From Flavobacterium lacisediminis (GTDB taxonomy: Bacteria > Bacteroidota > Bacteroidia > Flavobacteriales > Flavobacteriaceae): a stretch of DNA of 64,000 bases. Both the position numbers and the translations under genes were made by a program. The stretch's first letter is position 1. The number at the start of each line of letters is the position of its first letter. Of this stretch, positions 1 to 35,685 are shown piece after piece. A model generated the notes under the pieces. That model searched no databases, had not been told where the DNA came from, and saw only the letters and a program-made list of their open reading frames with translations. The stretch covers positions 248,001 to 312,000 of the forward strand of contig NZ_JAPCIO010000003.1 in assembly GCF_025909975.1 (NCBI RefSeq), written 5' to 3'.

Positions 1-202
1 TTTCAAAGATAGTTCCAAAGAAAACTAAGTAAAGTGCAAATACAATTGTCCAATAAAAATTAGTTTGCGAAATTTTAAAATAATCAAATTGAGCATAATG
101 TCCAATTAATGCTAAAGTTAGCAATGTAAAAAACACATCCATTGCACGCAATAATATTTTGCGCTCTGAAATTTCAAAATGTATTTTTTGGGATGCACTC
201 AT
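1..202 (-). CDS. Polyprenyl glycosylphosphotransferase, N-terminal part (partial)
   Basis: This gene runs off the left edge of the window; only the first 67 codons are present, starting at an ATG at 200-202. The visible part begins MSASQKIHFEISERKILLRAMDV and continues into two hydrophobic stretches. That layout is typical of the amino-terminal membrane domain of long-form bacterial sugar transferases (the WcaJ/WbaP-type initiators that load the first hexose-1-phosphate onto undecaprenyl phosphate). The family assignment rests on resemblance of this start to flavobacterial homologues that I know. The catalytic PF02397 domain would lie outside the window, so the enzyme's integrity cannot be judged. 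It lies downstream of the glycosyltransferase at 376, after a 173-base gap, and so may be transcribed separately. Confidence 0.7.
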   Translation of the reverse strand, partial: MSASQKIHFEISERKILLRAMDVFFTLLTLALIGHYAQFDYFKISQTNFYWTIVFALYLVFFGTIFE

Positions 203-375: not shown

Positions 376-1383
376 TTATTTCAATAAGGAAACCCAGCTT
401 TGCTTTACTAATTCCCAATTCATTTGCTCTATAAAAGTTCTGGCATTAGTAATTAATAAATTAGATTTTGATTTGTTTTCTAATAAATCCAACACTGCCT
501 TTGTCATGGCCGTAGTGTCATTATCAGGAATCAATAAGGCATTTACTTCATCTGTCAATAAAAACGGAATCCCACCAACTTTAGTGCTTATTACTGGCAA
601 ACCTAATGCCATTGCCTCCATAACACTAACAGGAGTATTATCAAAATGTGTTGTATTGATAAAAATATCATGTTTAGAAGCTAATTTCCACCACTCTTCT
701 TTTGTTAATTGACCTGTAAAATCGACAGAAACGCCCATGGACTCAGCAAAATCTTTAGTGGTTTGTAAACTTCCATCTTTATCGGGTCCTACCATAGTTA
801 AAGTAGCGGAAGGGTATTTTTCCTGTAATTGTTTCAAAACTTTTACTGCCATTTTTGGATTATAAATGGAAGAAAAAGCACGAACCCATAGTAATTTTGG
901 AGCTAATTCAGTTCGCACTTTAAATTCGTACTTTTCAATTTCAATAGCGTTTGGAATATGGATTACATTATCAAAACCTTCTTTTTCAAAAGCCTGCTTC
1001 AAATACTCTGATGGCGCTACATTTTTATATGCATTTGCAAACACCTTTTTAGATAATGTAGGATTCTTTTTCAAGCGATTCGGTAAATCGCCACCATGTA
1101 AAATAGGAATATACTTAACATTAAAAAAACTTGCCAACTGACTACATAAAAAGGCATACCAAAAAGCTTTTGTGCTATAGGTATCAATCAAAATATAAGA
1201 TACTTGTTTGTGATACAAAATAACAGACCACATCATATCCAACATACGTAATGGGAAAGACTTTTTTTCAGAAGCGTAAAACACATAAATTCCCTCCTGC
1301 TCTAGTTGAAGTCCTAAAGTTTCAATAGTGGTTTTATTATAGCCATGCTTACTTAACCGATTCCCTAGGTACAGAATTTTCAT
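376..1383 (-). CDS. Glycosyltransferase family 4
   Basis: A 335-residue cytoplasmic GT-B enzyme that would transfer a sugar from a nucleotide donor onto the growing lipid-linked glycan. The carboxy-terminal half shows the GT4 donor-site pattern NTTHFDNTPVSVMEAMALGLPV followed by STKVGG, with the E-x7-E type glutamates that bind the nucleotide sugar. The amino-terminal half has the weaker acceptor-domain signature, including the LHGGDLPNR segment. The ATG start is inside the end of the upstream polymerase-like gene (35-base overlap), which argues for translational coupling. Donor and linkage cannot be read from sequence. No signal peptide or membrane segment is evident. Confidence 0.88.
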   Translation of the reverse strand: MKILYLGNRLSKHGYNKTTIETLGLQLEQEGIYVFYASEKKSFPLRMLDMMWSVILYHKQVSYILIDTYSTKAFWYAFLCSQLASFFNVKYIPILHGGDLPNRLKKNPTLSKKVFANAYKNVAPSEYLKQAFEKEGFDNVIHIPNAIEIEKYEFKVRTELAPKLLWVRAFSSIYNPKMAVKVLKQLQEKYPSATLTMVGPDKDGSLQTTKDFAESMGVSVDFTGQLTKEEWWKLASKHDIFINTTHFDNTPVSVMEAMALGLPVISTKVGGIPFLLTDEVNALLIPDNDTTAMTKAVLDLLENKSKSNLLITNARTFIEQMNWELVKQSWVSLLK

Positions 1384-2701
1384 CTACAAATTGAACTTTT
1401 AATAATGATAAGGCATACACAAAAGCAGGTGCTGCCAAACGCATGGCCGCATGATTTATGGTGAGTATCCAAAAAACAACGAAAGAAAAAAGAAAAATAT
1501 TCTGCTTGTTATTAAAATATAAAGCTAATGGAGTAGTAAGTAAAATTATTAATCCTAATAGACCTAATGATCCGTGTTCGGCTAACATTCTCGTAATTTC
1601 ATTATGAGAGGCGGCTTCAATTCCAGTTGTTTCTTCTCTATATTCTTTATTTTTACCTACTCCTACACCAAAAATAGGATTATCTAAGAACATATTAAAT
1701 TCTGACTCTATTAATTTTTCTCTACCTGTTAGCTTACTTTCTTTTACTCTTCCTTTTGCATCTTGATTTGCATAACGCTTATCAATTAAACCACTTGTTT
1801 GAAGTGAGCTATAAGTCCAAACTCCCAAAAAAGCAACAAAACCAAGCACAACAAATATGACAATTTTGTTTTTTGCTTTTGAGTTGGTGTTAAAAAACAA
1901 GTAAATCATCAAAAGAATAATCATTAAAACCCCAGTAATTATTCCTCCTCTTGAAAAAGTAACAATTCCTCTAAAACTTATGAATAGAAACAAAATCAAA
2001 TTGATTAATAAAATTCCTTTTGTTTTTGAACTTAGAACAATCTTTGTGAAGAAAAGAAAAATACCTAAACCTAAAATCGTAGAAACCTGATTAGGTCCAA
2101 ATCCTCCAGAAGTTTTAAAATTAGACTGCGTATTAAACACCACTTCTTTTACACTTGGCGTGTACAAATACATAAATACTAATGTAGCTATTAAAGGAAA
2201 GGCCAGCATGTCTATGATGGTCAATACTTGTTTAAGCGTTACTTTTCTTTGATAACAATAAATCGCACAAACAGTCAAACAAACTGGTCCTACAATATTG
2301 AAAGTAATGGCTTTTCTAATATCTGTCTCATAATCTAATGTAAAAAATGAAAGAATGACACTTGGGAGTAATAACAAACCAAAAATCCAATATAAGATAG
2401 CGTTTTTGGAAAATCCTCTAAAAAGCATTCCTATAATCAAGATTCCCATTACGCCATATTTAGCATACTGTTCAAAAATGATACCTTGAGTCATGCGCAA
2501 AAAAACCTCTGCCCCCACTATGTAAGCTGCTACATATAAAGCTTCATTATTGGAATTTTTCCTTAAAATCACATAGCGAAAACCAACCAAAATAATAGTA
2601 ACCGCATACACTTTTGAAATTGGTGGAACAAAAAAAATTGCCAATCCAATTAGAACGTGTATAATTACAAACTTTAAATACTGTAGGGTTTCGCTATTCA
2701 T
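1349..2701 (-). CDS. O-antigen polymerase/ligase-like membrane protein (Wzy/WaaL type)
   Basis: A 450-residue protein made almost entirely of hydrophobic helices (roughly ten or more), with one large hydrophilic loop at about residues 300-375. The loop contains GREKLIESEFNMFLDNPIFG, then GVG and ASHNEITRMLAEHGSLGLLG. The G-x-G, SHN and E-x-G-x-x-G elements are the signature of the Wzy_C/O-antigen ligase family. Members either polymerise lipid-linked repeat units or ligate glycan to lipid A-core at the periplasmic face; sequence alone does not decide which. It overlaps the start of the next gene by 35 bases, and its ATG overlaps the stop of the preceding gene by 4 bases. No Wzx flippase is visible in the window, which is odd if this is a Wzy polymerase. 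Confidence 0.85.
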   Translation of the reverse strand: MNSETLQYLKFVIIHVLIGLAIFFVPPISKVYAVTIILVGFRYVILRKNSNNEALYVAAYIVGAEVFLRMTQGIIFEQYAKYGVMGILIIGMLFRGFSKNAILYWIFGLLLLPSVILSFFTLDYETDIRKAITFNIVGPVCLTVCAIYCYQRKVTLKQVLTIIDMLAFPLIATLVFMYLYTPSVKEVVFNTQSNFKTSGGFGPNQVSTILGLGIFLFFTKIVLSSKTKGILLINLILFLFISFRGIVTFSRGGIITGVLMIILLMIYLFFNTNSKAKNKIVIFVVLGFVAFLGVWTYSSLQTSGLIDKRYANQDAKGRVKESKLTGREKLIESEFNMFLDNPIFGVGVGKNKEYREETTGIEAASHNEITRMLAEHGSLGLLGLIILLTTPLALYFNNKQNIFLFSFVVFWILTINHAAMRLAAPAFVYALSLLKVQFVDENSVPRESVK

Positions 2702-3789
2702 AAGTTTTTTTGATAGGCATCAATAATTTTTTGAATCACTTTTTCAGGTGCGTAATTTGCTTTTACAAAAGTATTCAAATTTTTAGCTAGACCATCATTT
2801 TTATGAGATTCATTTGCTATTTTAATAAGAGCGCTTTGAAGTTGCGCTTCATTATCTGACGCTATTAAATAACCTGTTACTTCATTCTGAATAATTGTAC
2901 TGCAATAGCCTACATTTGAACTAATAACAGTTAATCCAGCCATTCCATATTCCAATAAAGTTACAGGAAACCCTTCATAACTTGAGACTAAAATCCCCAC
3001 TTTTGCTTGATTCAAAATTGATTTTACATCATTGCAAGAACCATAAATAAAAACAGCCTCTTTTAAATTATTTTGTTTGATAAAATCTTTCAAATCCTCT
3101 GAATAATCGTCTAACTTATCTTTTCCTATTAAATGCAACGTCCAACCTTCATTAGCTATTTTACTAGCTAAAAATGATTTTAATGCTAAAATATGATTTT
3201 TAGGATGATGAAGATTAGCTAAAAATACGATTCTTTTATTTGGAGTTCCATTTAAAATGGTAACGGGAATTTCGACTTCTGAATCCGAAGTAAAATTGGA
3301 AAGAAACTCCACATTTTTAACCCATAATTTTTTTTGTGCCCAATCTTTTAGTGCTTCATTCACTGTAAAAACACAACTAAAAAAAACAGAAAAAAAACGA
3401 AGCAAAAAATAACCTTCTTGAGATTTAACGCGATTTCCAAAATGATCGTGCCAAAAAATTTGAACAGACGGCATCGTTAACTTTAGTAAAACAGCGAAAA
3501 AATAAGAGCTTCCATGAGCGTGAACTGTATTTACTTTATTTGTTTTTATAAAAGTTCTTAAACGAAATAACGCGCTAAAGTCAATAGCCTTCATTTTATT
3601 TACAAAAGCATATCCTACTTTTTTATTGATTGTATTTTTCAAACCACCTTCCAATCGGGTAACAACCAATCCTGAAAAAGCTACTTCCTCTGCAAGCCTA
3701 TTCGCAATAGTTACTGCCATACGCTCAGCTCCGCCAGGTTCTAGACTATCAATTAATTGAATAACACGTATTTCTTTGGAAAAAGCCAA
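2698..3789 (-). CDS. Glycosyltransferase family 4 (TTG start)
   Basis: A 363-residue GT-B glycosyltransferase. The amino terminus has LIDSLEPGGAERMAVTIA, the classical GT4 acceptor-domain motif with the GGAER loop, and VHAHGS near residue 90. The carboxy-terminal half carries the donor motif SSYEGFPVTLLEYGMAGLTV. The start is TTG at 3787-3789: an in-frame stop lies three codons upstream and no ATG precedes the GGAER motif, so TTG is the only reasonable start. It ends 4 bases inside the next gene's start. Its upstream gap of 126 bases has no convincing promoter. The transferred sugar is unknown. Confidence 0.87.
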   Translation of the reverse strand: MAFSKEIRVIQLIDSLEPGGAERMAVTIANRLAEEVAFSGLVVTRLEGGLKNTINKKVGYAFVNKMKAIDFSALFRLRTFIKTNKVNTVHAHGSSYFFAVLLKLTMPSVQIFWHDHFGNRVKSQEGYFLLRFFSVFFSCVFTVNEALKDWAQKKLWVKNVEFLSNFTSDSEVEIPVTILNGTPNKRIVFLANLHHPKNHILALKSFLASKIANEGWTLHLIGKDKLDDYSEDLKDFIKQNNLKEAVFIYGSCNDVKSILNQAKVGILVSSYEGFPVTLLEYGMAGLTVISSNVGYCSTIIQNEVTGYLIASDNEAQLQSALIKIANESHKNDGLAKNLNTFVKANYAPEKVIQKIIDAYQKNL

Positions 3790-3915: not shown

Positions 3916-5043
3916 CTATTCTTTGAGCAATTTGCTGATTTCCGTTTCAAACTTATCTGTGGTAAATTGTCTAGACCAAACTTGTCCATCAGTTGCCATT
4001 TTTTGATATAATTCTTGGTTGTTTATAATAGTTGTTATTTTACTAATATCTTGATTTAATTCTTCTTTTAAAATCACACCTCTATTTCCATTTCCCATCA
4101 TATAGGGAACACAAGAAACAGGGGATGCTATTGGCACACAACCCCAAAACATAGCTTCCGCTACTACTTTTGGCCAACCTTCACTTTTTGAAGGCAAAAT
4201 TAAAAAATGACTATTTTGATACCCTTTTAAAACCGTTTCTTTAGTTTGATTTCCTTTTAAAGTTACAATACTTTCTAAATTATTTTGGGCTATATAAAGT
4301 TCTAATTCTTTTCGTAAAACACCTTCTCCATAAAGTTCAAGTATTACTTTTTCCCCTCTTTTATTCAACTCTTCAACAAGTTGAATAACATACAAAGGCT
4401 GTTTCCCTTTAGATAGCGTTCCAACAAATAAAAACTTAATTACTTCATTATTGACACTTCTTATTTCACAACTTGAATTTCTTACTTCATTCTCACTATA
4501 AGTAGCAGTAAAAAATGATTTAATATTCTTTGTGCTTCCTTCCCATTTGCCATAAACTAAAACCTGCATATTTCGAGTTAAAAAAGTATTGGATAAAATC
4601 CATTTTTGAAGACGATAACTCCAAGGTTGTTTACTTTTTGGATCCCAATTTCCTGCATATTTTGCAGTTTTTTGTTTATTAGGAAATAATATTTGAACTA
4701 GAGCTCCTATTAATCCCATGTTACCGGGACAACGTAAGTGAATATGGTCGGCTTGAGCCATTGCTATGTAAACTACTTTAAATAATATAGGGAGCTTAAA
4801 TATCGTTTTTATTATATTTTGTAATGAAGTAATTTCAAACTCAAGAACATCAATAAATTGAAGTTTGGAATGAATATATTTTTCATGAATTGGATTTATA
4901 GGTCCTTCAACGAGAGGAGCTACCACTTGAACCTCATCAACATATTTGAACCAAATATTCATTTCACGGATATAGGGAGCATAACCAAAATATTGATTAT
5001 CACTTTTTATATGCTGAACATGAGTTATTATACAAATTCTCAT
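3916..5043 (-). CDS. Glycosyltransferase family 4
   Basis: A 375-residue GT-B protein. The donor-binding half shows FVGTLSKGKQPLYVIQL around residues 210-225 and LPSKSEGWPKVVAEAMFWGC further on, the GT4 pattern with paired glutamates. The amino-terminal half contains HLRCPGNMG. Its ATG at 5041-5043 forms a TAATG junction with the stop of the preceding gene, so the two are translationally coupled. It is probably one of the cytoplasmic enzymes assembling the repeat unit. Substrates cannot be predicted. Confidence 0.86.
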   Translation of the reverse strand: MRICIITHVQHIKSDNQYFGYAPYIREMNIWFKYVDEVQVVAPLVEGPINPIHEKYIHSKLQFIDVLEFEITSLQNIIKTIFKLPILFKVVYIAMAQADHIHLRCPGNMGLIGALVQILFPNKQKTAKYAGNWDPKSKQPWSYRLQKWILSNTFLTRNMQVLVYGKWEGSTKNIKSFFTATYSENEVRNSSCEIRSVNNEVIKFLFVGTLSKGKQPLYVIQLVEELNKRGEKVILELYGEGVLRKELELYIAQNNLESIVTLKGNQTKETVLKGYQNSHFLILPSKSEGWPKVVAEAMFWGCVPIASPVSCVPYMMGNGNRGVILKEELNQDISKITTIINNQELYQKMATDGQVWSRQFTTDKFETEISKLLKE

Positions 5044-6185
5044 TAATGAATACTTTTATAAAATATAATATCTTTTAAAACAATAGTTTTAATTTCAAAT
5101 TGTTGTAAAACTGATTGCCTTCCTTTTTTTGCTATTTCTTGTGCTTTTTGGGGGTTACTTAAAACTTGAATAATAGTATTAGCGATTTCTCTTGGTTCGT
5201 GGGGATTGCATAACCAACCTGTTTCACCATTAGCAATCACTTCGGGACCTGGTCCTAATTTTGTAAAGATTACGGGTTTCTCCATTGCCATGGCTTCTGG
5301 AGCTACTAATCCTAAGGTTTCCATATGGGAAGGAAATACACAAACGGCAGCTTTTACATAGATATTTGGAATTTCTGCGAAAGATACAGCACCATGAAAA
5401 ATAACATCCTTAGCATATTCACCCAATTTTGGTAATTCTATTTCTTGTAGCATTTTGACATAAGAACTTCCATCTGGAAACAACCAATCTCTTCCATATA
5501 AATTCAAAATAGCATTCGGAAATTTTTCTTTCACTTCTGGAAAAGATTGAATCAATTGACGTACCCCTTTCTTCTCACAAATAGTCCCAGCAAAAGTGAT
5601 ATTATTCACTTCAATTGCTACATCTTTAGGCTGAAACAATTGGCTATTAATTGGGTTAAAAATAACTTCTATTGGCTTGTTATGATAACTTAAATACTTA
5701 GAAGTATGGCTTTTAACATAATTGGAAACCGCGATAAAAGCATCTGCCTTTTTAAAAGAGCGTTTTTCTTGAAATCCTTTCCACCAATTAATCCCTCTAT
5801 TTTCTCCTTCAGCAAAAAAATGATGGCCGCCATGTAAGCGAATGATGTATTTTATATCTTTTATTTTTGGTAAAAATGCAAAAGATAATTCGGCTCCTTC
5901 TACTATATCAATCGGATTTTTCTTATGAATTGCAGCAATAGTTTTGGAAATATTTTTTGAATTGAAATACCAAGCCAATCCTTTTACTTTACTTTTTTGA
6001 ATTCGAATTACGTTAACACCATTAACATTTTCGGTTTCATCTGAAAGCACATAATTTAAACCCACAACGGTAACTCGAATTCCTTTACCCACTAAGGCTT
6101 CCGCCATAGTTTTTACAAAACTACCCAAACCTCCATGTGGAAAGCCTGCTTTTGGATATTCGTTGGTTAAGAAACAGATGTGCAT
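5043..6185 (-). CDS. Glycosyltransferase family 4
   Basis: A 380-residue GT-B enzyme. It begins with MHICFLTNEYP followed by HGGLGSFVKTMAEAL, the typical GT4 amino-terminal glycine-rich loop. It has FAGTICEKKGVRQLIQSFPE at the start of the donor domain and FPSHMETLGLVAPEAMAMEK with GPGPEVI at the nucleotide-sugar site. A one-base TAATG overlap joins it to the gene at 3916, and it follows directly after the stop of the gene at 6186. It belongs to the contiguous glycosyltransferase block at the distal end of the locus. The sugar it transfers is unknown. Confidence 0.87.
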   Translation of the reverse strand: MHICFLTNEYPKAGFPHGGLGSFVKTMAEALVGKGIRVTVVGLNYVLSDETENVNGVNVIRIQKSKVKGLAWYFNSKNISKTIAAIHKKNPIDIVEGAELSFAFLPKIKDIKYIIRLHGGHHFFAEGENRGINWWKGFQEKRSFKKADAFIAVSNYVKSHTSKYLSYHNKPIEVIFNPINSQLFQPKDVAIEVNNITFAGTICEKKGVRQLIQSFPEVKEKFPNAILNLYGRDWLFPDGSSYVKMLQEIELPKLGEYAKDVIFHGAVSFAEIPNIYVKAAVCVFPSHMETLGLVAPEAMAMEKPVIFTKLGPGPEVIANGETGWLCNPHEPREIANTIIQVLSNPQKAQEIAKKGRQSVLQQFEIKTIVLKDIIFYKSIH

Positions 6186-7568
6186 TTAGTTAATTATTGA
6201 ATTTGTTACTGCATTGGATGAAGTATCATAATCTCCTAATACTTTCTCTATCCAAATATTTGTTGATTGATTCCATTTCAAATCTGTAAGCAATTGATTT
6301 ATTTCTTCTTTTTGCTGCCACCAAATAACAACATTTTTATTGGGCATACTTTTAAAATGCTGAAATTTATAAATTATTTTTACAGACCAATCTGGATTTA
6401 CCTTTGTATTCTGATCATAATCTATATATATACATGGTTTATCAAACATCCCAAAATCAAAAGCCATAGTAGAACCTAAATTTATTACCAAATCACTGTA
6501 ATACACTGTTGAAACTAATAACTTAACATCCTCAGGTAATGGATAAATAGTTGTCCAACTACTATTTGGCTCAAAATTCCACAAAGGTGGCGCTTGCTTT
6601 ATTAAATTAGGATATTTTGAAATTATTTTATCAAATCTACCTGAAATATCTACAGGACATCTTCTCAATAAAATTTGATATTTATTATCTAAATTATTTT
6701 TAATTAACTCATCTGCTAAATCATCCAAGTATTGTGGATCATCTGGACAAGTTAACACATCATCTCCTGAATAACAAATAATTTTTTTATTTGTATCCAA
6801 ACTATATCTTTTATAAAAATCATCTTTAGGGATAATATTTTCGGGGTTTTGGTAACATTCAAACTGAGGAGTCCCTGTAACAAAAATTTGGTCTGAAACA
6901 ATTTCTGGATAATATAATTTCAATTCTTCCTTCATATAATCGGACCAAACCAAATATTTATCAGCTTGCAATGCCATTCTTGCTTTTGGTAAATTATCCC
7001 AAGAATAAATCACAGTGATAGTTTCAATCCCTAAATCTTTTGCGGCAGCGAAAACAGTAGCACATTGCACACCTCTTTGATGCGAACAAAATATTTTTTC
7101 AGGAGCTACCTCTATAAGAATTTTTCTTATATCGGAATAAAAAAATGTATTTCTTATAGCTTTTTGATACCTCTTTTCAAGCTTTAAAATACTCTTGTAA
7201 TTAGTAAAACCCATCGAGACCATCTCAATACACTTATAAAATAATGATTTAAAAAAACCTTTATGATTGGTTTTCCAATTGGTTAAAATAGATGGATTAT
7301 TTACTAATTTAGCATTATATTTCAAACGTGACAAGCAAATTAATTCTCTAAGAAACTTTTCTTTTAAAGATTCTGAATATTTAGGAATTGTTAAAGAATT
7401 TTGAATGTTTGTGATTTCTTTTACTCCTTGTTCTGTTTTATCATCAAACGCATGAAACAAAACCAATTCATCTTCGGCACCCTTAAAAACATTAGAATAT
7501 AAATAATTTCGAATCCCTACTCCATCCGGGAAAAGTAACATTATTTTTTTATTAAAAGATTTTGACAT
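6186..7568 (-). CDS. Probable GT-B-fold surface carbohydrate transferase of unknown specificity
   Basis: A 460-residue protein that I do not recognise as a named family. It starts KKIMLLFPDGVGIRNYLYS. In the middle it has FCSHQRGVQCATVFAAAKDL and ITVIYSWDNLPKA, and later VWSDYMKEEL and FVTGTPQFECY. Near the carboxy terminus it has STVYYSDLVINLGSTMAFD followed by DKPCIYIDYD. The order (a His-containing acceptor half, GTPQF at the interdomain turn, then a serine/asparagine-rich donor loop ahead of DKPC) resembles GT-B enzymes and CDP-glycerol glycerophosphotransferase-like proteins. It lies between the acylation pairs and a run of GT4 genes. It may transfer sialic acid or another charged unit, but that is inference from context only. 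Confidence 0.55.
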   Translation of the reverse strand: MSKSFNKKIMLLFPDGVGIRNYLYSNVFKGAEDELVLFHAFDDKTEQGVKEITNIQNSLTIPKYSESLKEKFLRELICLSRLKYNAKLVNNPSILTNWKTNHKGFFKSLFYKCIEMVSMGFTNYKSILKLEKRYQKAIRNTFFYSDIRKILIEVAPEKIFCSHQRGVQCATVFAAAKDLGIETITVIYSWDNLPKARMALQADKYLVWSDYMKEELKLYYPEIVSDQIFVTGTPQFECYQNPENIIPKDDFYKRYSLDTNKKIICYSGDDVLTCPDDPQYLDDLADELIKNNLDNKYQILLRRCPVDISGRFDKIISKYPNLIKQAPPLWNFEPNSSWTTIYPLPEDVKLLVSTVYYSDLVINLGSTMAFDFGMFDKPCIYIDYDQNTKVNPDWSVKIIYKFQHFKSMPNKNVVIWWQQKEEINQLLTDLKWNQSTNIWIEKVLGDYDTSSNAVTNSIIN

Positions 7569-7631: not shown

Positions 7632-8528
7632 TTACTTACGGTTAGCATTTCGAATCGTATTAAATTGGACAGCAAAATCTTCGGAACATTGGGTTCTACC
7701 CAAACTGTTCACATGTAAATTATCATAAAAAAGACTATCTACCGAAATAAAATCGGAATGATTTACAAAGTAATCCTTCGCATTCGATTTTACCGAATTT
7801 TTATAAAGTGGTGATTGGTACAAAACCAATGTTATTCCCTGTTTCTGACAAAAATCTTTTATTTTTTTGAAATAAGGATTATTAAATTGCATTGCTGTGG
7901 TCGTTGCTTCTGCTTGTATTGGAGCTCCTAAATTAGGATAGCTGTAATTTCCTTTTTCATCAAAACGATTGCGTTTTTCTGGTTTCAAAATGGTGAATAG
8001 AGAAGGATAAAAAAGTTCCGTATTGTAATAACTAACACCCACCAAAGGAAAATAAGTCGCATATTTTAAAACCGGAAAACCCTCATATGGAATAGTTTGA
8101 TAATATTCACGAACTGCGGTTGTGTTACGTTCCGACAAGAAACGATAATCGTTATTATTCAAAACTGGATTTTCATTTGCTAAATCCCAAGGCGTTACTG
8201 CTAAAACCAGATAATCCGTTGTTTTTTGTTGTTGGTAGAAAAATTGCAACATCAAATAATGGGAACTCAAAGCGGAATCATCCATGCTAATATTCAAACC
8301 CTTTGTTTTTAATTTTTCGTCGATTAATTTCGTATCTAACGTAGTTAACCCGGTGCTAGAACCTAACACCACATAATCAAAATGTTTTTCTTTTACCCCA
8401 TTTTTAACAAATTGAGGTTTATATAAATTCGATTTCCCAATAAAATATAAAGACAGCCAAGCGATTCCATTTCCAATTAAGAGAATGAAAAAAGTATAAA
8501 GCACTATTTTAGTTAAAAACTTTTTCAT
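7632..8528 (-). CDS. SGNH-type membrane-anchored esterase/acyltransferase partner (DltD/AlgX-like)
   Basis: A 298-residue protein with a single amino-terminal hydrophobic anchor (about residues 7-30) and an extracytoplasmic SGNH-hydrolase-like domain. The nucleophile block is VVLGSSTGL with GSS at 56-58, and the catalytic Asp/His pair is YDNLHVNSLG with Asp269 and His272. In alginate, cellulose and teichoic acid systems, such proteins work with an MBOAT membrane protein to move an acyl group onto the exported polysaccharide. Here the partner gene (8528-9955) precedes it with a one-base TAATG overlap. The pair is one of two tandem copies. The acyl group and acceptor sugar are unknown. Confidence 0.8.
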   Translation of the reverse strand: MKKFLTKIVLYTFFILLIGNGIAWLSLYFIGKSNLYKPQFVKNGVKEKHFDYVVLGSSTGLTTLDTKLIDEKLKTKGLNISMDDSALSSHYLMLQFFYQQQKTTDYLVLAVTPWDLANENPVLNNNDYRFLSERNTTAVREYYQTIPYEGFPVLKYATYFPLVGVSYYNTELFYPSLFTILKPEKRNRFDEKGNYSYPNLGAPIQAEATTTAMQFNNPYFKKIKDFCQKQGITLVLYQSPLYKNSVKSNAKDYFVNHSDFISVDSLFYDNLHVNSLGRTQCSEDFAVQFNTIRNANRK

Positions 8529-9955
8529 TAGAATTGAAAATAAATAAAGTCCATTTGATTTTTAAAACTTCCCATAAAGAAAATTAACAACACTAAAAGC
8601 AAAGCACCAAAAGCAGAGATTTTAGGTAATTCTCTTTTTTTGATAACCCAAACTAATTCTTGCATAGATAAAATTCCGATAGCCAAAACACTTAAACCAA
8701 AAATCATCAAATTCGCATTAGTTTTATAGAATAAAGATAATCCTAAACTATTCAATTCCAACATATGAGCTAAATATTGAAAAGCATCAGCAATAGAATC
8801 CGCTCTAAAAAATACCCAACCAATACACACGACTAAGAAAGTAACTCCAATTTTAGCAAAATCGAGCCAACCATAGGATTTGGTAATCAAATGGCTTCTG
8901 TTTACATTAAATAGTAATAACGGCAAAAACATTAAGGCGTGAAATAAACCCCAAACCACATAAGTCCAATTGGCGCCATGCCAAAAACCACTTACCAAAA
9001 AGATAATCATAACGTTTCGAATTTGAAACCCTTGTGAACCTTTTGAACCGCCAAGCGGAATATAAATATAATCGCGAAACCATGTAGATAAAGAAATGTG
9101 CCAACGACGCCAAAATTCGGCAATATCACGCGAAAAGTAAGGGAACTTAAAATTCACCATTAAATCAAATCCAAAAAGTTTAGATAATCCTATAGCAATG
9201 TCTGAATATCCTGAAAAATCACCATAAATTTGGAAGGCGAAGAACACCATTCCAAAAAACAATTCGCCACTAGAATAAACTTCTGGATTTTCAAAAATCT
9301 TGTTTACAAAAAAAGCACAGTTATCCGCAACTACTACTTTTTTGAACATCCCCCAAATAATCAATTTGACACCATCCACCGCATTTTGATACTCAAATGT
9401 TCGGTTTTTATAAAACTGAGGTAATAAATGAGAAGCTCTTTCAATTGGACCCGCTACTAATTGTGGAAAAAAAGTTACGAAAGCGGCAAAATCGATAAAA
9501 CTTTTTGTAGGTTTCATTTCCTTTCGGTATACATCAATGGTGTAACTTAAGGTTTGGAACGTATAAAACGAAATTCCTACTGGAAGTATAACATTTAATG
9601 TACTGGCTTCCATTGTAATTCCAACACTTGACCAAGCTTCTATCCAACTTGCCACGAAAAAATTGTAATATTTAAAGAAACCTAACATCCCCAGATTCCC
9701 CACTAAACTAATTCCTAAAAGTAATTTTCGTTTTTTGGAAATGGATGTTTTTCCTAATTGTATAGCAATAAAATAATCTAAAAAAGTACTAGCGATAATT
9801 AAGGATAAAAAACGCCAATCCCACCAACCATAGAAAATATAACTAGCTACCAATAACAATACATTTTGTGCTCGTAATTGGTTTTTAAATACAAACCAAT
9901 ACAAGAAAAAAACAGTAGGCAGAAAAAGTAAAAATTCTATCGAGTTAAAAAGCAT
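8528..9955 (-). CDS. MBOAT family O-acyltransferase (AlgI/DltB-like), copy 1
   Basis: A 475-residue polytopic membrane protein of the membrane-bound O-acyltransferase family. The hallmark motifs are present: IYGDFSGYSDIAIG (about 243-256), FWRRWHISLSTWFRDYIYIP (281-300, His286) and VSGFWHGANW (321-330, His326, the likely catalytic histidine). Such proteins pass an acyl group, usually acetyl, across the inner membrane for esterification of a periplasmic polysaccharide. It is directly coupled to the SGNH protein at 7632. It aligns without gaps with the second MBOAT at 10837 over at least the first 330 residues, so the two are paralogues. Confidence 0.92.
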   Translation of the reverse strand: MLFNSIEFLLFLPTVFFLYWFVFKNQLRAQNVLLLVASYIFYGWWDWRFLSLIIASTFLDYFIAIQLGKTSISKKRKLLLGISLVGNLGMLGFFKYYNFFVASWIEAWSSVGITMEASTLNVILPVGISFYTFQTLSYTIDVYRKEMKPTKSFIDFAAFVTFFPQLVAGPIERASHLLPQFYKNRTFEYQNAVDGVKLIIWGMFKKVVVADNCAFFVNKIFENPEVYSSGELFFGMVFFAFQIYGDFSGYSDIAIGLSKLFGFDLMVNFKFPYFSRDIAEFWRRWHISLSTWFRDYIYIPLGGSKGSQGFQIRNVMIIFLVSGFWHGANWTYVVWGLFHALMFLPLLLFNVNRSHLITKSYGWLDFAKIGVTFLVVCIGWVFFRADSIADAFQYLAHMLELNSLGLSLFYKTNANLMIFGLSVLAIGILSMQELVWVIKKRELPKISAFGALLLVLLIFFMGSFKNQMDFIYFQF

Positions 9956-9958
9956 GTA

Positions 9959-10837
9959 CTATTTTTTAAATAAATCTTCAATAATTTTAGTGGTGTACAA
10001 CCTTGCTCCTTTATCATTTAAATGCCCGCAAGAGGAAAAGTATTCATCTCCCTCTACTACATGTTCGTACTCTTTGATTTCAGGATACAACGCTTTCACT
10101 TTTTTAAAATATTCCATTCCTTTTACATTCGAACACATAGGAGTCGTTACTGCTATCAAATTGATATTATTAGCATTACAAATTTGCTTAATTTCTTCGA
10201 AATAACGGTTACGTAAAGGCACTAAACTTTCAATATTGTTATTCATGTTGGCTTTAGGATTATATCCAAGCGGATAATACCCATTATTTGCCAAGGTATT
10301 GGTCGGTTCGTTTACCAAGGTTTTACACCAAGCTCTAAAACCTACTTTAGCATCAAATTGTATGTAACGATAAAACGGCACATAATACAATTCGGTAAAA
10401 TCGGGTTCGTTTTTAAAATGTTCTGCAATAGTATTCGATTGATGCATAAACGGCATGAAACGTCCAAAAGTACCATCATCGCGTTTTTCGTTGGACAGAT
10501 TTAAATCCGTTTCTACTATGACGTTTTTTATTTCCCAACCGCGCTCTATCATCAATTTTAGTATCAAAGAAGTTTCAAACAAATGGGCACCACTCATTCC
10601 GAAATTAAAGGTTTTCAACCCTTCTTTTTCAAACAATTCCGAAACAAAATGGTTATTCGCTCTTGAAGTTCCTAAAATAATAACATCATAGTTTTGAGGT
10701 TTCGAATTGACAACATTTTCTACTTTATTTCGAGTTTCCGATTGGGCAAAAACAGTGGTATAAATGAAATCTAATGCAAAAGCGGAGAGCAAAAGCACAA
10801 CTATTATTTTTCCGATAAAAACTAAAAACTGTTTCAT
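9959..10837 (-). CDS. SGNH-type membrane-anchored protein, copy 2, with altered catalytic Asp
   Basis: A 292-residue protein with an amino-terminal membrane anchor (about residues 4-25) and an SGNH-like extracytoplasmic domain. The nucleophile block is IILGTSRANNH with Ser58. The carboxy-terminal block reads SSCGHLNDKG with His272. The family normally has Asp-x-x-His; here the residue three before the histidine is Ser269, which occupies the position of Asp269 in the neighbouring copy. It could use another acid (Asp263 or Asp275 are nearby) or have changed activity. It is joined by a TAATG overlap to the MBOAT gene at 10837. It may act in O-acylation of the exported glycan or may recognise acyl-donor complexes without hydrolytic activity. 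Confidence 0.75.
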   Translation of the reverse strand: MKQFLVFIGKIIVVLLLSAFALDFIYTTVFAQSETRNKVENVVNSKPQNYDVIILGTSRANNHFVSELFEKEGLKTFNFGMSGAHLFETSLILKLMIERGWEIKNVIVETDLNLSNEKRDDGTFGRFMPFMHQSNTIAEHFKNEPDFTELYYVPFYRYIQFDAKVGFRAWCKTLVNEPTNTLANNGYYPLGYNPKANMNNNIESLVPLRNRYFEEIKQICNANNINLIAVTTPMCSNVKGMEYFKKVKALYPEIKEYEHVVEGDEYFSSCGHLNDKGARLYTTKIIEDLFKK

Positions 10838-12270
10838 TAGAATTGGAAATAAATAAATTCTTTATAATCGGAATACACGCCTAAAGCTAATAAAGCCATA
10901 ATCGCTAAGGTTACTTTTATCCAACTTGCTTTTCCTGATAAAGGCTCTACTTTAGTACGATTTAACCATTCAACAAATACAAAAATCATTACCAAAAATA
11001 GTAATTCAAAATTATAACGTTCGTTACTCAAATATTGCGAATCAAAATGGAAATCGGTCACCATTTTTTGGATATATCCGACAGCTTCAGTCATTGATTT
11101 TGCTCTAAAGAAAATCCACGCAATTGTAGTTAAAGCAAAAGTACCTAAAATATTCAAAATGGTTTTTACACTGCTTATATTCCAACCCATTTCAATTTCG
11201 CCCATATTGGAACGATTCTTATTTTGCAATAACAAAGGCAAGAAATAAATTGCATTCAATAAGCCCCAAATAATAAACGTCCAATTGGCTCCATGCCAGA
11301 ATCCGCTCACTAGGAAAATGATAAAAGTATTTCTCACTTTCATCCACATGCCACCTTGACTTCCGCCTAACGGAATGTACAAATAATCGCGAAACCATGA
11401 TGATAATGAGATATGCCAACGACGCCAAAATTCAGCAATATCTCTAGAAAAATAAGGATAGTTGAAATTCTTTAATAAATCGATTCCAAATAATTTAGAT
11501 GTTCCCAATGCAATATCAGAATACCCTGAAAAATCACCATAAATTTGGAAGGCAAAATAAACAGCTCCTAAAATTAATGATAAAGAATTCATGGATTCGT
11601 AATTATCAAAAACAGCATTGGCATAAGTGGCACAACTATCCGCAATAACCACTTTTTTGACCAATCCCCAAATAATTTGATAAACACCTTCTTTGGCTTT
11701 TTCAAAATTAAAATGGCGTTTGATTTTTACTTGTGGTAATAAATGGGTAGCTCTTTCAATAGGTCCAGCAACCAAAAGTGGAAAGTAACTTACAAATAAC
11801 GAATAATCGATAAAATTGCGTTCGGCGGTGATGCGTTTGTAATAAATATCAATTACATATGACAAGCCATGAAACGTATAAAAGGATATTCCAACAGGAA
11901 GTATTAATTTTAATAGAACAGGATTTGTTTGAAATCCAAAACCATGCAACAAATCGGCAAAAGATTGCGCAAAAAAATCGTAGTATTTAAATACACCTAA
12001 AAACCCTAAGTTAATCCCAATAGTTAACCACAACCAAAACTTTCGTTTTTTATCGGTCATGCTGTTTTCCATCATAATAGCACTGAAGTAATCAAGCAAA
12101 GTAGAAAACACCAATAAAAACAAAAAACGCCAATCCCAACACGAGTAAAAATAATAACTCGCTACAATCAATACCGCATTTTGAGTAGTTTTATTTTTAT
12201 TAAATACTACCCAATACAGTAAAAATACAATAGGCAAAAAAAGGGCAAAGGATAAAGAGTTGAAAAACAT
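10837..12270 (-). CDS. MBOAT family O-acyltransferase (AlgI/DltB-like), copy 2
   Basis: A 477-residue polytopic membrane protein. Its motifs are IYGDFSGYSDIALG, FWRRWHISLSSWFRDYLYIP (His286) and VSGFWHGANW (His326), at the same residue numbers as in copy 1. This gap-free correspondence shows a recent or strongly constrained duplication. It should export an acyl group for the SGNH partner at 9959, whose start overlaps its stop by one base. Its own ATG follows the neuC stop immediately, so neuC, MBOAT, SGNH, MBOAT and SGNH are probably one transcript. The link to neuC suggests, but does not prove, that sialic acid is the acyl acceptor. Confidence 0.91.
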   Translation of the reverse strand: MFFNSLSFALFLPIVFLLYWVVFNKNKTTQNAVLIVASYYFYSCWDWRFLFLLVFSTLLDYFSAIMMENSMTDKKRKFWLWLTIGINLGFLGVFKYYDFFAQSFADLLHGFGFQTNPVLLKLILPVGISFYTFHGLSYVIDIYYKRITAERNFIDYSLFVSYFPLLVAGPIERATHLLPQVKIKRHFNFEKAKEGVYQIIWGLVKKVVIADSCATYANAVFDNYESMNSLSLILGAVYFAFQIYGDFSGYSDIALGTSKLFGIDLLKNFNYPYFSRDIAEFWRRWHISLSSWFRDYLYIPLGGSQGGMWMKVRNTFIIFLVSGFWHGANWTFIIWGLLNAIYFLPLLLQNKNRSNMGEIEMGWNISSVKTILNILGTFALTTIAWIFFRAKSMTEAVGYIQKMVTDFHFDSQYLSNERYNFELLFLVMIFVFVEWLNRTKVEPLSGKASWIKVTLAIMALLALGVYSDYKEFIYFQF

Positions 12271-13395
12271 TTAACTATCTCTAAATTGTTTTTGATGATT
12301 TAATTGCCAAATATCCTCATTTAATAGGGATTTCAAAAATAATTCGGCGCTATTTCCTTTTCCGAAATCGCTTTCTGTTGGTTGTATTTTATGAGTATCT
12401 ATAACATTCAGAGCATTAGAAATACTTACCGATGTATAATCTACATTGATTATGTCGGCGTGAAGTGCCCTATTTTGTTGACGTGTTCCAATATTGATAA
12501 TCGGTAACCCATAATAAGGAGCTTCTCTAATACCTGCACTACTATTACCAATAATGAATTGTGATTTTTTTAATAAGGTTAAAAAATATTCAAATCGCAA
12601 AGAAGGAAAAATACGGAATCGAGGATTGTCTTTTAATTTCTGATACGCTTTTAATATGGTTTGACTTCCTAAATCGTTATTGGGATACACTACCACATAA
12701 TTATGATAATCTGCTAATAAAGCATCTACAAAATTATCCGCATATTCCTGCATAAATTTTGCTTCTGTAGTTACTGGATGGAACATCGCAACCGCATAAG
12801 TATCAAATGCAATTTCATAATACTGTTTTGCTGTTTCTAAATTGGGCAGTGTATCAGAAAACATGATATCTACATCAGGAGAACCGATTGTAAAAATGGC
12901 ATTTTCTAATTCTCCCATTTGAATCAAACGTTTTTTGGCTTGTTTGTTAGAAACAAAGTGCACGTGACTCATTTTACTGGTAGAATGACGAATCAACTCA
13001 TCAATGGTTCCAGAGACTTCTCCACCTTCAATATGGGCTACTAAAATATTATTCAAACTTCCAACAATAGCTCCTGCTAACGCTTCTACCCTATCGCCAT
13101 GAATGACAATCATATCAGGGTCACACGATTTTACATAAGTAGAAAGTCCTTCGATGGTCTTAGCTAAAGTCAAATCCATTGTGGTTTCGTGGGTGTGATT
13201 TTCAAACGTGTGAATATTAGAAAAGCCACATCTCTCCACTTCTAACAAGGTATAACCATATTCCTTTTGCAAGTGCATACCCGTAACAAAAATAAAAGGT
13301 TCAAATTCGGGATGTACTTCCAAAATTTGAATCAAGGATTTTATTTTACCAAAATCGGCACGCGTACCGGTAAGAAATAGGATTTTTTTGGACAT
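12271..13395 (-). CDS. neuC: UDP-N-acetylglucosamine 2-epimerase, hydrolysing (NeuC)
   Basis: A 374-residue GT-B-fold enzyme that releases UDP from UDP-GlcNAc and yields N-acetylmannosamine, the first step of sialic acid synthesis. It begins KKILFLTGTRADFGKIKSL. It carries IVIHGDRVEALAGA with the family's HGDR element, LVAHIEGGEVSGTIDELIRH, and FIIGNSSAGIREAP near the carboxy terminus, all characteristic of hydrolysing 2-epimerases. Length matches the family. A legionaminic-type homologue (LegG) acting on a diamino sugar is the main alternative, but the adjacent NeuB resembles the true sialate synthase. A -7 promoter element lies just upstream at 13418-13425. The gene heads the transcript with the acylation genes. 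Confidence 0.88.
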   Translation of the reverse strand: MSKKILFLTGTRADFGKIKSLIQILEVHPEFEPFIFVTGMHLQKEYGYTLLEVERCGFSNIHTFENHTHETTMDLTLAKTIEGLSTYVKSCDPDMIVIHGDRVEALAGAIVGSLNNILVAHIEGGEVSGTIDELIRHSTSKMSHVHFVSNKQAKKRLIQMGELENAIFTIGSPDVDIMFSDTLPNLETAKQYYEIAFDTYAVAMFHPVTTEAKFMQEYADNFVDALLADYHNYVVVYPNNDLGSQTILKAYQKLKDNPRFRIFPSLRFEYFLTLLKKSQFIIGNSSAGIREAPYYGLPIINIGTRQQNRALHADIINVDYTSVSISNALNVIDTHKIQPTESDFGKGNSAELFLKSLLNEDIWQLNHQKQFRDS

Positions 13396-13417
13396 TTTGT
13401 AAATGGCTATTGCGTTG

Positions 13418-13425
13418 CAAATATA
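13418..13425 (-). promoter_or_regulatory. Candidate -7 promoter element upstream of neuC
   Basis: Read on the minus strand, the sequence is TATATTTG followed by C, a full match to the Bacteroidota housekeeping -7 consensus TAnnTTTG. It ends about 22 bases before the neuC ATG, implying a short leader. No TTG was found at the expected upstream distance, so this rests on the -7 element alone. Confidence 0.45.
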
Positions 13426-13434
13426 GTTATTTTT

Positions 13435-13473
13435 ACAAGACCTGATACGTTTTAAAAACCTGTCAGGTCTTGT
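13435..13473. repeat. Imperfect palindrome between neuB and neuC
   Basis: An inverted repeat with perfect 11-base outer arms (ACAAGACCTGA at 13435-13445, TCAGGTCTTGT at 13463-13473) and a partly matching inner part around a T-rich/A-rich centre. Neither strand shows a clean uridine run after the stem, so it is not a standard intrinsic terminator. Similar AACCTGTCAGGTCTTG palindromes are, from memory, dispersed in Flavobacterium genomes. It lies in the only sizeable gap of the sialic acid cluster, between the neuB stop and the neuC promoter. Confidence 0.7.
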
Positions 13474-13485
13474 AATTATATGTAA

Positions 13486-14526
13486 TTACTCAAAATCACC
13501 AAAATCCAATTGCTCATCATTAGCAATATCTCTTGTTGCTTTTTTACCTAATAACGAATCAAAATGTTCTGCTAAGATTTTACCAGTACCTGGTCGCTTT
13601 ACCCAAATGTTTTCTTTTGTTAACATTTCTCCTTTTTGGATAGAGGCAATGGAACAAACCGTTGCAAAAGCGAAATCAATTGTAACTTGTTCTTCGTCTG
13701 CTGGTTTTTTTGTTCCGCCACGCATTTGCGCCATTTCGGCACTATTGATGATTAATTCTTTACACGCTTGTTCATCCATACTACATACAATGTCTGGACC
13801 TGTTCGGTTCATGTGATCAGTAAAATGGCGTTCTAAAATGGCTGCTCCTAAAGCTACTGCTCCTAAACATGCGTTATTATTTAGGGTGTGATCAGATAAT
13901 CCAAAAACTTTATCAGGGAACGCTTGATGCATTTCCATCATGGCACCAAATCGTACTAAATGAATTGGGGTTGGGTATAAATTGGTAGTATGTAATAAGG
14001 CAACTGGAATATTGTGTTTATCAAAAATAGCTACTGCTTTTTGAATACTATCTATAGTATTCATTCCGGTACTCAAAATAACAGGTTTCCCAAAAGAAGC
14101 AATATGCTCTAATAACGGATAATTATTACATTCACCCGAACCAATTTTATAGGCCGGAATATCAAATTTTTTCAAACGTTCAGCAGCAGCACGGGAAAAA
14201 GGAGTTGAGATAAAAATCATGCCTTTGCTTTCGACATAATTTTTCAATTCTAGTTCCTCTTCTTCGTTTAAAGCACAACGTTCCATAATTTCATAAATAG
14301 ACACGTCGGCATTTCCTGGAATGACTTTTTTAGCAGCGCCACTCATTTCGTCAGCTACGATATGGGTTTGGTGTTTCACTACCTCAACACCTGCTCTATG
14401 AGCTGCATCTACCATTTCTTTGGCTACTTGAAGTGAACCTTCATGATTAATACCGATTTCGGCAATAACTAATGGTGGAAAATCGGGTCCTATTTTTCTT
14501 CCTGCTATTTCTATGTAGGGATTCAT
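13486..14526 (-). CDS. neuB: N-acetylneuraminate synthase (NeuB)
   Basis: A 346-residue enzyme that condenses phosphoenolpyruvate with N-acetylmannosamine to form N-acetylneuraminic acid. The TIM-barrel domain (about residues 1-280) has [56 protein letters not shown] and LSDHT; a SAF antifreeze-like domain (about 285-346) closes the protein with [11 protein letters not shown] and LGKKATRDI. The [16 protein letters not shown] and GPDIVCSMD blocks agree closely with what I remember of Campylobacter jejuni NeuB1, the true sialate synthase, rather than with the legionaminate or pseudaminate synthases. It lies between neuA and neuC; the palindrome at 13435 separates it from neuC. Confidence 0.9.
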
Positions 14527-14551
14527 ATATTTAGTGATTAGTGAATAGTAA

Positions 14552-15217
14552 TTAGTGTATAGTTTTATTTAAAAGAAATTCTGCGTAACCAAAATCTTCT
14601 TGTGTATCGATATCTACATTAGCAAAAGGATGATTCACTTCTAATGGAAAAGCATCTTTTGTAATGATTTCATTATTTAATATTACAGATGCTTTTGTAA
14701 TGTAAAGCAACCCATTTTCATAATACAAAGGTTCTAAATCTTGACTGCGTTGCCCTACTTCATAATTGTAAGGAATGAATTTATGGTTTGTAATTTTTCC
14801 TAATTTATGATGACTTCGTGAAACGGTAAACAAACTATCTACTTGTTTTTCTTGAAAAATCGTAAAAGCTTCTTGTAATAGATTTTTTGGTCTCAGTGGA
14901 TTGGTAGCTTGCAACAGTATTACATTTTCAACTGCTCCATGAATTGATTCTAAAACATGCTTTAAAGCTGAAACAGTGGGTTCCAAATCTCCTGAAATTT
15001 CTTGAGGTCTATCAATTACTACAGCACCATATTGCAAAGCTATTTCTTTTATAGCCACGTCATCGGTAGAAACATAAATCACATCGATAAAATCATACTG
15101 TTTAGCATATAAAATACTGTGTGCCAACAAAGGAATTTCTCCCAATAGTTTTATGTTTTTTCCAGGTAAACGTTTAGAACCTCCTCGTGCTGGGATGATG
15201 GCTATGGATTTACTCAT
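14552..15217 (-). CDS. neuA: Acylneuraminate cytidylyltransferase (NeuA)
   Basis: A 221-residue nucleotidyltransferase that activates sialic acid with CTP to CMP-sialate. It opens [18 protein letters not shown] (residues 4-21), the CMP-sialate synthetase nucleotide-binding loop. It continues with [18 protein letters not shown] and [16 protein letters not shown] near the end; the last carries the metal-binding aspartates. The length fits the short single-domain bacterial form without an esterase extension. It precedes neuB by 25 bases and overlaps the acyltransferase at 15210 by 8 bases. A CMP-legionaminate activity is possible but less likely given the NeuB type. Confidence 0.88.
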
Positions 15218-17770: not shown

Positions 17771-17773
17771 TTC

Positions 17774-18475
17774 TTAAATTTTATAATTTGTATAATCTAA
17801 ATATGTTTGAAACAAATGTAATTCTAATTCGTTATTTATCACAGGAAACTTATTTAAATTAACTGCATTTCTAAATTCAACTAATTTCAAATACACTTCT
17901 TCAACTGAAATTTCTGTATATGTAATCTCATTTTGTTCTAATGTACCTATTATAGCCACAACATTGTCAATATAATTCAATTTTACTAAATTCTTATTAT
18001 GCTGTATTTCTAGATCATTATGTATATTATAGCAAAAAGTAGCAACAAATGATGTTTTATAAGGTTTAGCATATCTTCCGAATATATTAGGCAACTTATA
18101 GCTAACAAAATTACTATCCACTTCTAAACAATATCTTTTAAACAATTCTTTAGATTCTCGTTTAGCAATACCATATGGTGTTTCTAAATCTTCTTGTATA
18201 GAAGATAAAAAGACTACATTGACCTTATTTTCAATATTTTTCAAACCATCTATAGTAGCTATTGCTAACTTACGATTTTCTTCTAAAATTTCATTTGGAT
18301 CAGAACTTCTATGCAAAAAGGCACCATGAATTAACCAATCCAATTCTTTTAAATCAGAAAGCTTAGACAAATAATCTCGACCAAGTTCAATTACTTCATA
18401 TTTTAGAATATGTCTAAAATAATTCATTAAATGAATCCCAACGAATCCTTTTTCTCCTGTAATAGCTATTTTCAT
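17774..18475 (-). CDS. CapF/FnlB/WbjC-like SDR reductase without the cupin domain
   Basis: A 233-residue SDR protein. It has ITGEKGFVGIHL at 5-16, FLSSIQEDLETPYGIAK at 89-105 with catalytic Tyr101 and Lys105, and YKLPNIFGRYAKPYKTSFVA followed by TFCYNIHND. The SSIQ...PYG, LPN-FG-KPY and VATFCYNI blocks are those of CapF, the bifunctional enzyme of UDP-L-FucNAc synthesis that I know to be about 370 residues long. Here the protein stops soon after the SDR core, so the carboxy-terminal cupin epimerase domain is missing. Either a separate epimerase supplies that step or a different deoxysugar is made. The 278-base gap upstream (18476-18753) is AT-rich with no feature I can name. Confidence 0.75.
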   Translation of the reverse strand: MKIAITGEKGFVGIHLMNYFRHILKYEVIELGRDYLSKLSDLKELDWLIHGAFLHRSSDPNEILEENRKLAIATIDGLKNIENKVNVVFLSSIQEDLETPYGIAKRESKELFKRYCLEVDSNFVSYKLPNIFGRYAKPYKTSFVATFCYNIHNDLEIQHNKNLVKLNYIDNVVAIIGTLEQNEITYTEISVEEVYLKLVEFRNAVNLNKFPVINNELELHLFQTYLDYTNYKI

Positions 18476-35677: not shown

Positions 35678-35685
35678 TATTTATT

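Follow-up and report, generated by a model that had tools for sequence, protein, structure and literature searches.

Bacterial sialic acid synthesis has been studied best in species that imitate the glycans of their hosts, pathogens as well as commensals, and the neuABC (sia) genes of Neisseria meningitidis are a described counterpart of the locus reported here. We analyzed a 64-kb stretch of the Flavobacterium lacisediminis genome (contig NZ_JAPCIO010000003.1, positions 248001–312000; hereafter the window), which belongs to an assembly of 2.86 Mb in 36 contigs with 99.95% completeness. Its neuA, neuB and neuC genes are predicted to encode the same three activities as sia, and NeuB is 62.4% identical over 340 positions to the N-acetylneuraminate (Neu5Ac) synthase 1xuu, which we take to be from N. 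meningitidis; here, unlike there, no polysialyltransferase or lipooligosaccharide sialyltransferase of known families was found. We propose, with a probability of about 0.7, that the locus makes the cytidine monophosphate (CMP) conjugate CMP-Neu5Ac and that a glycosyltransferase encoded in the same locus, designated GTx, would transfer the nonulosonate from CMP to a surface glycan. Genomic context, remote homology and tree behaviour together make GTx the likely best candidate for this transferase, with about the same confidence.

According to an excerpt of PMC12887879, a (K/R)xHP motif is common to sialyltransferases and the retaining transferases of 3-deoxy-D-manno-oct-2-ulosonic acid (Kdo); in KrkA an essential hydrogen bond comes from the motif His, and the first motif position varies. 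Knock-outs of Tannerella forsythia GtfS (445 aa) and TFUB4_00887 (442 aa) lost the terminal derivative of pseudaminic acid (Pse) or legionaminic acid (Leg), and both proteins are said to carry D/E-D/E-G and HP motifs (excerpts of PMC6388019 and PMC6120980). The classical sialyltransferases of GT38, GT42, GT52 and GT80 resemble GTx in the donor proposed for it, CMP-Neu5Ac, and in a serine/threonine pair, but differ in that their models match neither the window proteins scanned nor, for GT38, GT52 and GT80, the genome. The retaining Kdo/Pse transferases (KpsC/KpsS, GT99 and GT107, with GT118 presumably as a Pse member) are alike in CMP-ulosonate donors, a GT-B fold and the (K/R)xHP region; they differ in that GTx has no direct sequence match to them and lacks the motif His. 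No sialic acid or nonulosonate transferase like GTx was described for Flavobacterium or Bacteroidetes in the titles and abstract openings of the open-access literature, among the matches listed.

The initial annotation had read neuA, neuB and neuC as a complete route to CMP-sialic acid, and this reading held: the three open reading frames lie exactly where it placed them, and the family assignments stand (Table 1). NeuC exceeds its equivalog cut-off and NeuB does so by a narrow margin, while NeuA passes the Pfam family CTP_transf_3 and has a CMP-N-acetylneuraminic acid synthetase as the nearest protein of solved structure; no NCBIfam equivalog was passed by NeuA (best PseF, 142.6 versus 205.7 bits). 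NeuB, the sole match in the genome to its Pfam family, contains all the motifs previously cited for it, including GPDIVCSMD; 1xuu shares the other two and reads GPDIVCSMN at this one. In a maximum likelihood tree of 53 rows, with 1xuu, the pseudaminate synthase 8h2c and SpsE (1vli) as references and Campylobacter jejuni NeuB1 and LegI not among the rows, the window NeuB falls in a 16-row clade with 1xuu (SH-aLRT 100 by a quick method; the tree carries a warning that long branches meet). It thus groups with neither the pseudaminate synthase (PseI) nor SpsE, where a grouping with pseudaminate or legionaminate synthases was what the annotation had named as refuting its reading, and its identity to 1vli and 8h2c is 36.3% and 31.5%, respectively; the PseI model was not passed (219.9 versus 340.25 bits). 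The trio is found together in many relatives, so that its grouping is not a matter of chance. Judged from these sequences, the route is complete and probably makes Neu5Ac. In this pathway, NeuC would hydrolyse uridine diphosphate N-acetylglucosamine (UDP-GlcNAc) to yield N-acetylmannosamine (ManNAc), NeuB would condense ManNAc with phosphoenolpyruvate to form Neu5Ac, the predicted product of the locus, and NeuA would join Neu5Ac and CTP to give CMP-Neu5Ac.

The occurrence of GTx with NeuB was surveyed in 395 genomes of the order (E ≤ 1e-10 for GTx and E ≤ 1e-20 for NeuB). GTx was present in 57 genomes (59 matches) and NeuB in 132; all 57 genomes with GTx had NeuB, versus 75 of the 338 without it. 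The two lie on one contig for at least 52 of the 59 GTx matches, at least 51 of these 52 within 20 kb, at least 47 within 10 kb and at least 24 within 3 kb, the distances being taken from the NeuB matches listed, so that further matches could only raise the counts. The Fisher value for co-location is 3e-32, a figure that ignores relatedness. Within the window's family, GTx was found in 52 of 61 NeuB genomes and in none of the 15 genomes lacking NeuB. The window's own NeuB type occurs in 25 of the 395 genomes, and the 20 that also carry GTx are all those of the window's family (20/20). When named genomes were scanned with an alignment of GTx, at least 591 relatives appeared, the best 80 of which were used for the locus counts: by record title, 79 are from Bacteroidota and one from a Sulfurovum metagenome-assembled genome. 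neuA, neuB or neuC accompanies GTx in 70 of these 80 loci, and in 61 of the 64 longer than 15 kb. The neuB DNA had no match in E. coli genomes, and GTx had none in the plasmid collection. Separately, a plasmid of Alistipes indistinctus (NZ_AP023050.1, locus L192) carries neuABC with a NeuB 69.7% identical to that of the window and an N-acetyl sugar amidotransferase gene after neuC; no sialyltransferase family was seen among three nearby proteins scanned.

Of sixty loci retrieved around matches to GTx or NeuB (loci are numbered with the prefix L), 49, most chosen for it, gave a GTx protein. The closest relatives, such as L035, repeat the gene order of the window: neuA-neuB-neuC, MBOAT, SGNH, GTx, GT4 genes and Wzy. 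Three nonulosonate pathway types adjoin GTx, namely the Neu5Ac type of the window (type A), a second NeuB/NeuC type (type B) and a type resembling that for ketodeoxynonulosonic acid (KDN; type C). The type B NeuB is about 30% identical to the window's and is paired with its own NeuC; the type B companion reading frame tested (L040) is asparagine-synthase-like, and a reading frame of 555–600 aa is present in 21 of 48 type B loci. F. johnsoniae strain CI04 is among the carriers of the GTx module with a type B pathway. The type C NeuB is about 291 aa long, with no SAF match in the one tested (L057). The NeuA of the same locus carries a fused KdsC/KDN-9-phosphatase-like domain (TIGR01670, 127.1 bits against a cut-off of 106.95; NF058599, 123.7 against 180), and this fusion suggests that type C is a 9-phosphate route such as that to KDN. 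The NeuC matches the NeuB type in single-type loci (A, 54/54; B, 44/45), and type C loci have no NeuC (21/21). In several type C loci the distance between GTx and the NeuB match is no more than 250 bp. The type C loci that contain GTx (L055–L059, L061–L066, L155, L158, L160 and L167) come from Flavobacteriaceae and from Marinilabiliales/Bacteroidales; a type C NeuB without GTx in the same stretch was seen in L086, L087, L088, L091 and L093.

GTx itself had no Pfam or NCBIfam model over cut-off. Its best model is NF046086, 'BFO_1060 family glycosyltransferase' (E = 1.1e-13), to which it is the only match in the genome and which 36 of 43 GTx members match at E ≤ 0.001. Profile alignment by hhalign of the 43 GTx sequences with nine BFO_1060-type sequences, one of them (L191) below the family cut-off, gave a probability of 99.4 and E = 2.9e-21 over GTx residues 149–460, pairing R302-x-C304-P305 with K-x-H-P and G-S366-T with E-S-T. 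Members over the cut-off occur in eight of 198 genomes of the phylum, and in seven of the eight (L185–L190 and L079) the stretch retrieved around the member also contains NeuB. PseB-like and PseC-like genes, recognised by BLAST against proteins of the window, are present in L185–L188 and L190, and a PseC-like gene alone in L189; L184 has no NeuB, PseB-like or PseC-like gene, and L191 has NeuB. The NeuBs of L079, L185, L187, L190 and L191 fall in the PseI clade of the tree, and that of L079 passes the PseI model (507.0 versus 340.25 bits). At the sequence level, then, GTx is not without relatives, being remote kin of the BFO_1060 family, whose members mostly lie beside pseudaminate-type genes. 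The two groups share a length of about 440–490 aa, a GT-B fold, placement in nonulosonate loci (seven of eight BFO_1060 members) and the S-T motif; they differ in the KxHP motif, which is R-x-C-P in GTx, and in their loci, which are mostly Neu5Ac-type, second-type or KDN-like for GTx and pseudaminate-type for BFO_1060. We presume that the tag BFO_1060 refers to T. forsythia strain 92A2, and the tag numbering and locus position indicate that the family probably includes the nonulosonate transferases GtfS and TFUB4_00887; the term BFO_1060 was not found in the open-access literature searched. One locus, L079 (G064:C1:158500-178400), holds a PseI-type NeuB and a second NeuB/NeuC/NeuA set together with two GTx members and one BFO_1060 member, and so lends itself to testing donor specificity.

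Among the 43 GTx members, R302 is invariant (43/43) and P305 nearly so (40/43), and the S-S/T motif is present throughout (S366 in 43/43, T/S367 in 43/43). One member (L079:10483-11871) keeps the full motif as R-P-H-P, which looks like the ancestral state. An AlphaFold2 model of GTx shows a GT-B fold with high confidence (pLDDT 91.8, pTM 0.89); that of a BFO_1060 member is weaker (pLDDT 78.3). The fold search was set aside as proof, as GTx and the one BFO_1060 member returned only generic GT-B neighbours, chiefly UDP-GlcNAc 2-epimerases; no classical sialyltransferase was among the 50 fold matches listed for either. The GTx profile matches TarL (E = 1.4e-4, profile positions 309–386), the BFO_1060 profile weakly matches KpsC (E = 0.046), and the BFO_1060 member of L187 matches Capsule_synth (E = 1.1e-5). 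Because GTx reaches TarL and BFO_1060 weakly reaches KpsC, both of which use cytidine nucleotides, a cytidine-type donor site in GTx is suggested.

Trees of GTx and of the GT4 glycosyltransferase encoded next to it were compared for how well they follow pathway type, using 103 one-label loci (50 A, 38 B and 15 C, the window locus included) that remained from 106 after three were removed at ≥97% GTx identity; loci with mixed or pseudaminate-type NeuB, or without GTx or GT4, were excluded. The GTx tree required 25 changes of pathway type and the GT4 tree 33 (shuffle means 42.6 and 42.7, minima 34 and 35), and for type C against the rest 2 and 9. Maximum likelihood trees gave 25 versus 35 changes, again with 2 versus 9 for type C, and 12 bootstrap trees each gave 24–28 for GTx and 32–34 for GT4. 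GTx failed to outperform GT4 in one of 500 subsamples of 70 loci. Pathway type is thus tracked best by GTx, an advantage that comes mostly from type C and to which linkage could contribute. Known sialyltransferases take CMP-Leg as well as CMP-Neu5Ac (excerpt of PMC6388019), a tolerance that would suit a role of GTx in A and B loci alike, were type B a legionaminate pathway. The balance tips slightly towards GTx being the founder of a widespread and so far unclassified family of CMP-nonulosonate transferases in Bacteroidota, most of whose members have the HP His replaced (R-x-Cys/Ser-Pro); a single conserved slot in a surface-glycan operon would then take Neu5Ac, a second nonulosonate made by NeuB/NeuC, or KDN, depending on the pathway cassette upstream of it.

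Several observations weigh against this assignment of GTx. The nearest solved folds are UDP-GlcNAc 2-epimerases (5xvs_A, Z 23.1, 3.6 Å over 320 residues), a generic GT-B result. The window GTx reads R-R-C-P at the (K/R)xHP motif, and residue 304 is His in only 2 of the 43 members (otherwise Cys in 23, Ser in 11, Val in 3, Ala in 2 and Tyr in 2). GTx scores 51.1 bits against BFO_1060, for which 200 are needed, and that BFO_1060 is a knocked-out Tannerella enzyme is something we infer. Nonulosonate loci without GTx exist: it is missing from 9 of the 61 NeuB genomes of the window's family and from 5 of the 25 genomes with the window's NeuB type, all five outside that family; in the only such locus fetched (L094), none of the seven neighbours scanned is a glycan gene, all having housekeeping or other functions. 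Physical linkage alone could suffice for GTx to track NeuB. Types A and B are hardly separated by GTx (23 changes, versus 26 for GT4, in 88 loci), and its advantage is slight when the comparison is confined to the 72 loci that carry all four transferases (20 versus 23, 23 and 23 changes; shuffle means 26.5–26.6, minima 20–21). Finally, the adjacent GT4 (5043–6185) is found strongly (E < 1e-30) in 51 of the 395 genomes, all of them with GTx and NeuB, and in 64 of 64 loci longer than 15 kb, where neuA, neuB or neuC reaches 61 of 64. Since this control co-occurs equally tightly, co-occurrence marks a module and not GTx alone, and was rejected as proof by itself.

The same counts, 51 of 51 genomes and 64 of 64 loci, would suit a scheme in which this GT4, or another transferase of the locus of the nucleoside diphosphate-sugar type, carries out sialyl transfer and GTx adds a neighbouring sugar. 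We consider this unlikely: the protein is an ordinary GT4 by family, and we know of no CMP-sugar donor in GT4; six genomes have GTx and NeuB without a strong GT4; the GT4 tree tracks pathway type less well than the GTx tree; and the link to BFO_1060 belongs to GTx. The GT2 at 15850–16842, also considered as the transferase, was rejected, being present in 33 of the 64 GTx loci longer than 15 kb.

The donor sugar might instead be legionaminic acid or another relative of Neu5Ac. The similarity of NeuC does not separate the ManNAc route from that through diacetylbacillosamine, its score being nearly as high with the diacetylbacillosamine epimerase 5xvs (175.1 bits) as with 4zht, the epimerase domain of GNE (188.4 bits), and the locus contains a LegC-like aminotransferase gene (37559–38686, 378.4 bits against a cut-off of 420) and a gene for a NeuD/PglB/VioB-type acetyltransferase (30556–31209, 148.9 against 160.8). 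The LegC-like gene, however, adjoins a sugar-phosphate transferase gene, as if serving the first sugar, and among the window proteins scanned against NCBIfam neither the LegB nor the LegC model was passed, the best LegB match reaching 132.2 of 475 bits and that LegC-like protein being the best for LegC. The window NeuB shares 62% identity and a clade with the Neu5Ac synthase 1xuu, apart from SpsE, which belongs to the legionaminic acid pathway in Bacillus subtilis (excerpt of PMC7439481). The NeuB tree and the failed LegB and LegC cut-offs weaken the legionaminate alternative, which we regard as improbable, and Neu5Ac is retained as the probable product.

That GTx might be a CDP-polyol transferase or other phosphotransferase of the TagF/TarL kind is suggested by weak PF04464 matches in 22 of the 43 members, by the TarL profile match and by TarL being among the closest folds (Z 20.2, 4.1 Å over 317 residues), a likeness of fold only. 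This is very unlikely: of the 39 window proteins scanned against Pfam, none but NeuA was recognised as a cytidylyltransferase, and the tight association of GTx with NeuB would be left unexplained. As for a classical sialyltransferase elsewhere in the genome using the CMP-Neu5Ac, a search for GT38, GT52 and GT80 in this 99.95% complete genome gave no match at E ≤ 1, and the idea can be largely dismissed. What speaks for it is that the GT42 genome search was uninformative, its control genomes giving no match either, and that GT97 and GT100 were not searched.

The initial annotation had found no protein of GT38, GT42, GT52 or GT80 in the window and left two options, a known enzyme beyond its edges or a new transferase among the unassigned ones. 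The first point was borne out when 39 proteins of the window and one at its edge were scanned against Pfam (E ≤ 0.01 or E ≤ 0.1, by batch), none of them matching any of the four families. The flanks, read over about 20 kb each for reading frames of at least 150 aa (inspected by eye, one scanned), showed no standard sialyltransferase; the low side holds the sugar-phosphate transferase and then housekeeping genes, and the high side starts with ribosomal genes. The second option is favoured, with GTx as the candidate; the glycosyltransferases encoded downstream would build a surface glycan, and GTx would add the nonulosonate from CMP to it as it grows; acceptor and linkage are likewise predictions.

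Table 1. Features of the nonulosonate locus (window coordinates; paired scores are bits/cut-off).
Feature	Position	Strand	Evidence and remarks
neuA	14552..15217	-	CMP-nonulosonate (CMP-Neu5Ac) synthetase, predicted, 221 aa; PF02348 93.2/22.6; best PDB 1eyr, E 1.3e-27
neuB	13486..14526	-	N-acetylneuraminate synthase, predicted, 346 aa, SAF domain; TIGR03569 403.3/399.65; clade with 1xuu
neuC	12271..13395	-	Hydrolysing UDP-GlcNAc 2-epimerase, predicted, 374 aa; TIGR03568 413.9/235.9; best PDB 4zht
MBOAT O-acyltransferase 1	10837..12270	-	PF03062 102.7 bits
SGNH-like partner of MBOAT 1	9959..10837	-	Named by eye and position; no Pfam match
MBOAT O-acyltransferase 2	8528..9955	-	PF03062 96.4 bits
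SGNH-like partner of MBOAT 2	7632..8528	-	Named by eye and position; no family over cut-off
GTx, proposed CMP-nonulosonate (sialic acid) transferase	6186..7568	-	460 aa, GT-B fold; context, remote homology, trees, model
GT4 glycosyltransferase co-conserved with GTx	5043..6185	-	PF00534
GT4 glycosyltransferase, conserved downstream module	3916..5043	-	
GT4 glycosyltransferase, conserved downstream module	2698..3789	-	
Wzy_C (O-antigen ligase/polymerase type) membrane protein	1349..2701	-	PF04932 64.8 bits
GT4 glycosyltransferase, conserved downstream module	376..1383	-	
Start of sugar-phosphate transferase gene (Bac_transf)	1..202	-	Continues past the window edge (L002:17820-19202); final gene of the locus
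Palindrome between neuB and neuC	13438..13470	none	Sequence

Between neuC and GTx, the window carries two tandem MBOAT and SGNH-like pairs (7632–12270), which probably O-acylate the surface glycan, the presumed target. Among 30 loci with GTx, NeuB and MBOAT, the MBOAT gene lies only before GTx in 7, only after it in 20 and on both sides in 3, and homologues of the SGNH-like protein at 9959–10837 come after MBOAT in relatives. The palindrome between neuB and neuC has no second copy in the genome at up to three mismatches and is not a dispersed repeat here.

Elsewhere in the window, a glycan exporter of the ABC type is encoded at 34418–36630, in addition to the Wzy_C protein. The locus has two sugar-phosphate transferase genes, one at 38703–39305 and one at the low edge. 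With this set of genes, glycan synthesis may have two initiation steps, or the locus may specify two glycans. Two short proteins (308 and 233 aa) at 16844–18475 are FnlA/PseB-like and WbcJ-like but far under the model cut-offs (PseB 165.7/407.75, FnlA 114.4/730, reductase 118/500), and possibly represent a divergent 6-deoxy amino sugar route. Within the run of transferases, the protein at 29631–30554 has weak DUF4185 and GINT1_N matches below cut-off.

If this reading is true, flavobacteria, among them many environmental species, would have a Neu5Ac route served by a transferase family of its own, which would broaden the present picture of bacterial sialic acid synthesis. For glycan synthesis, GTx would add a new class of sialyltransferase, and, with at least 591 relatives, it would serve as an anchor gene for finding nonulosonate loci.

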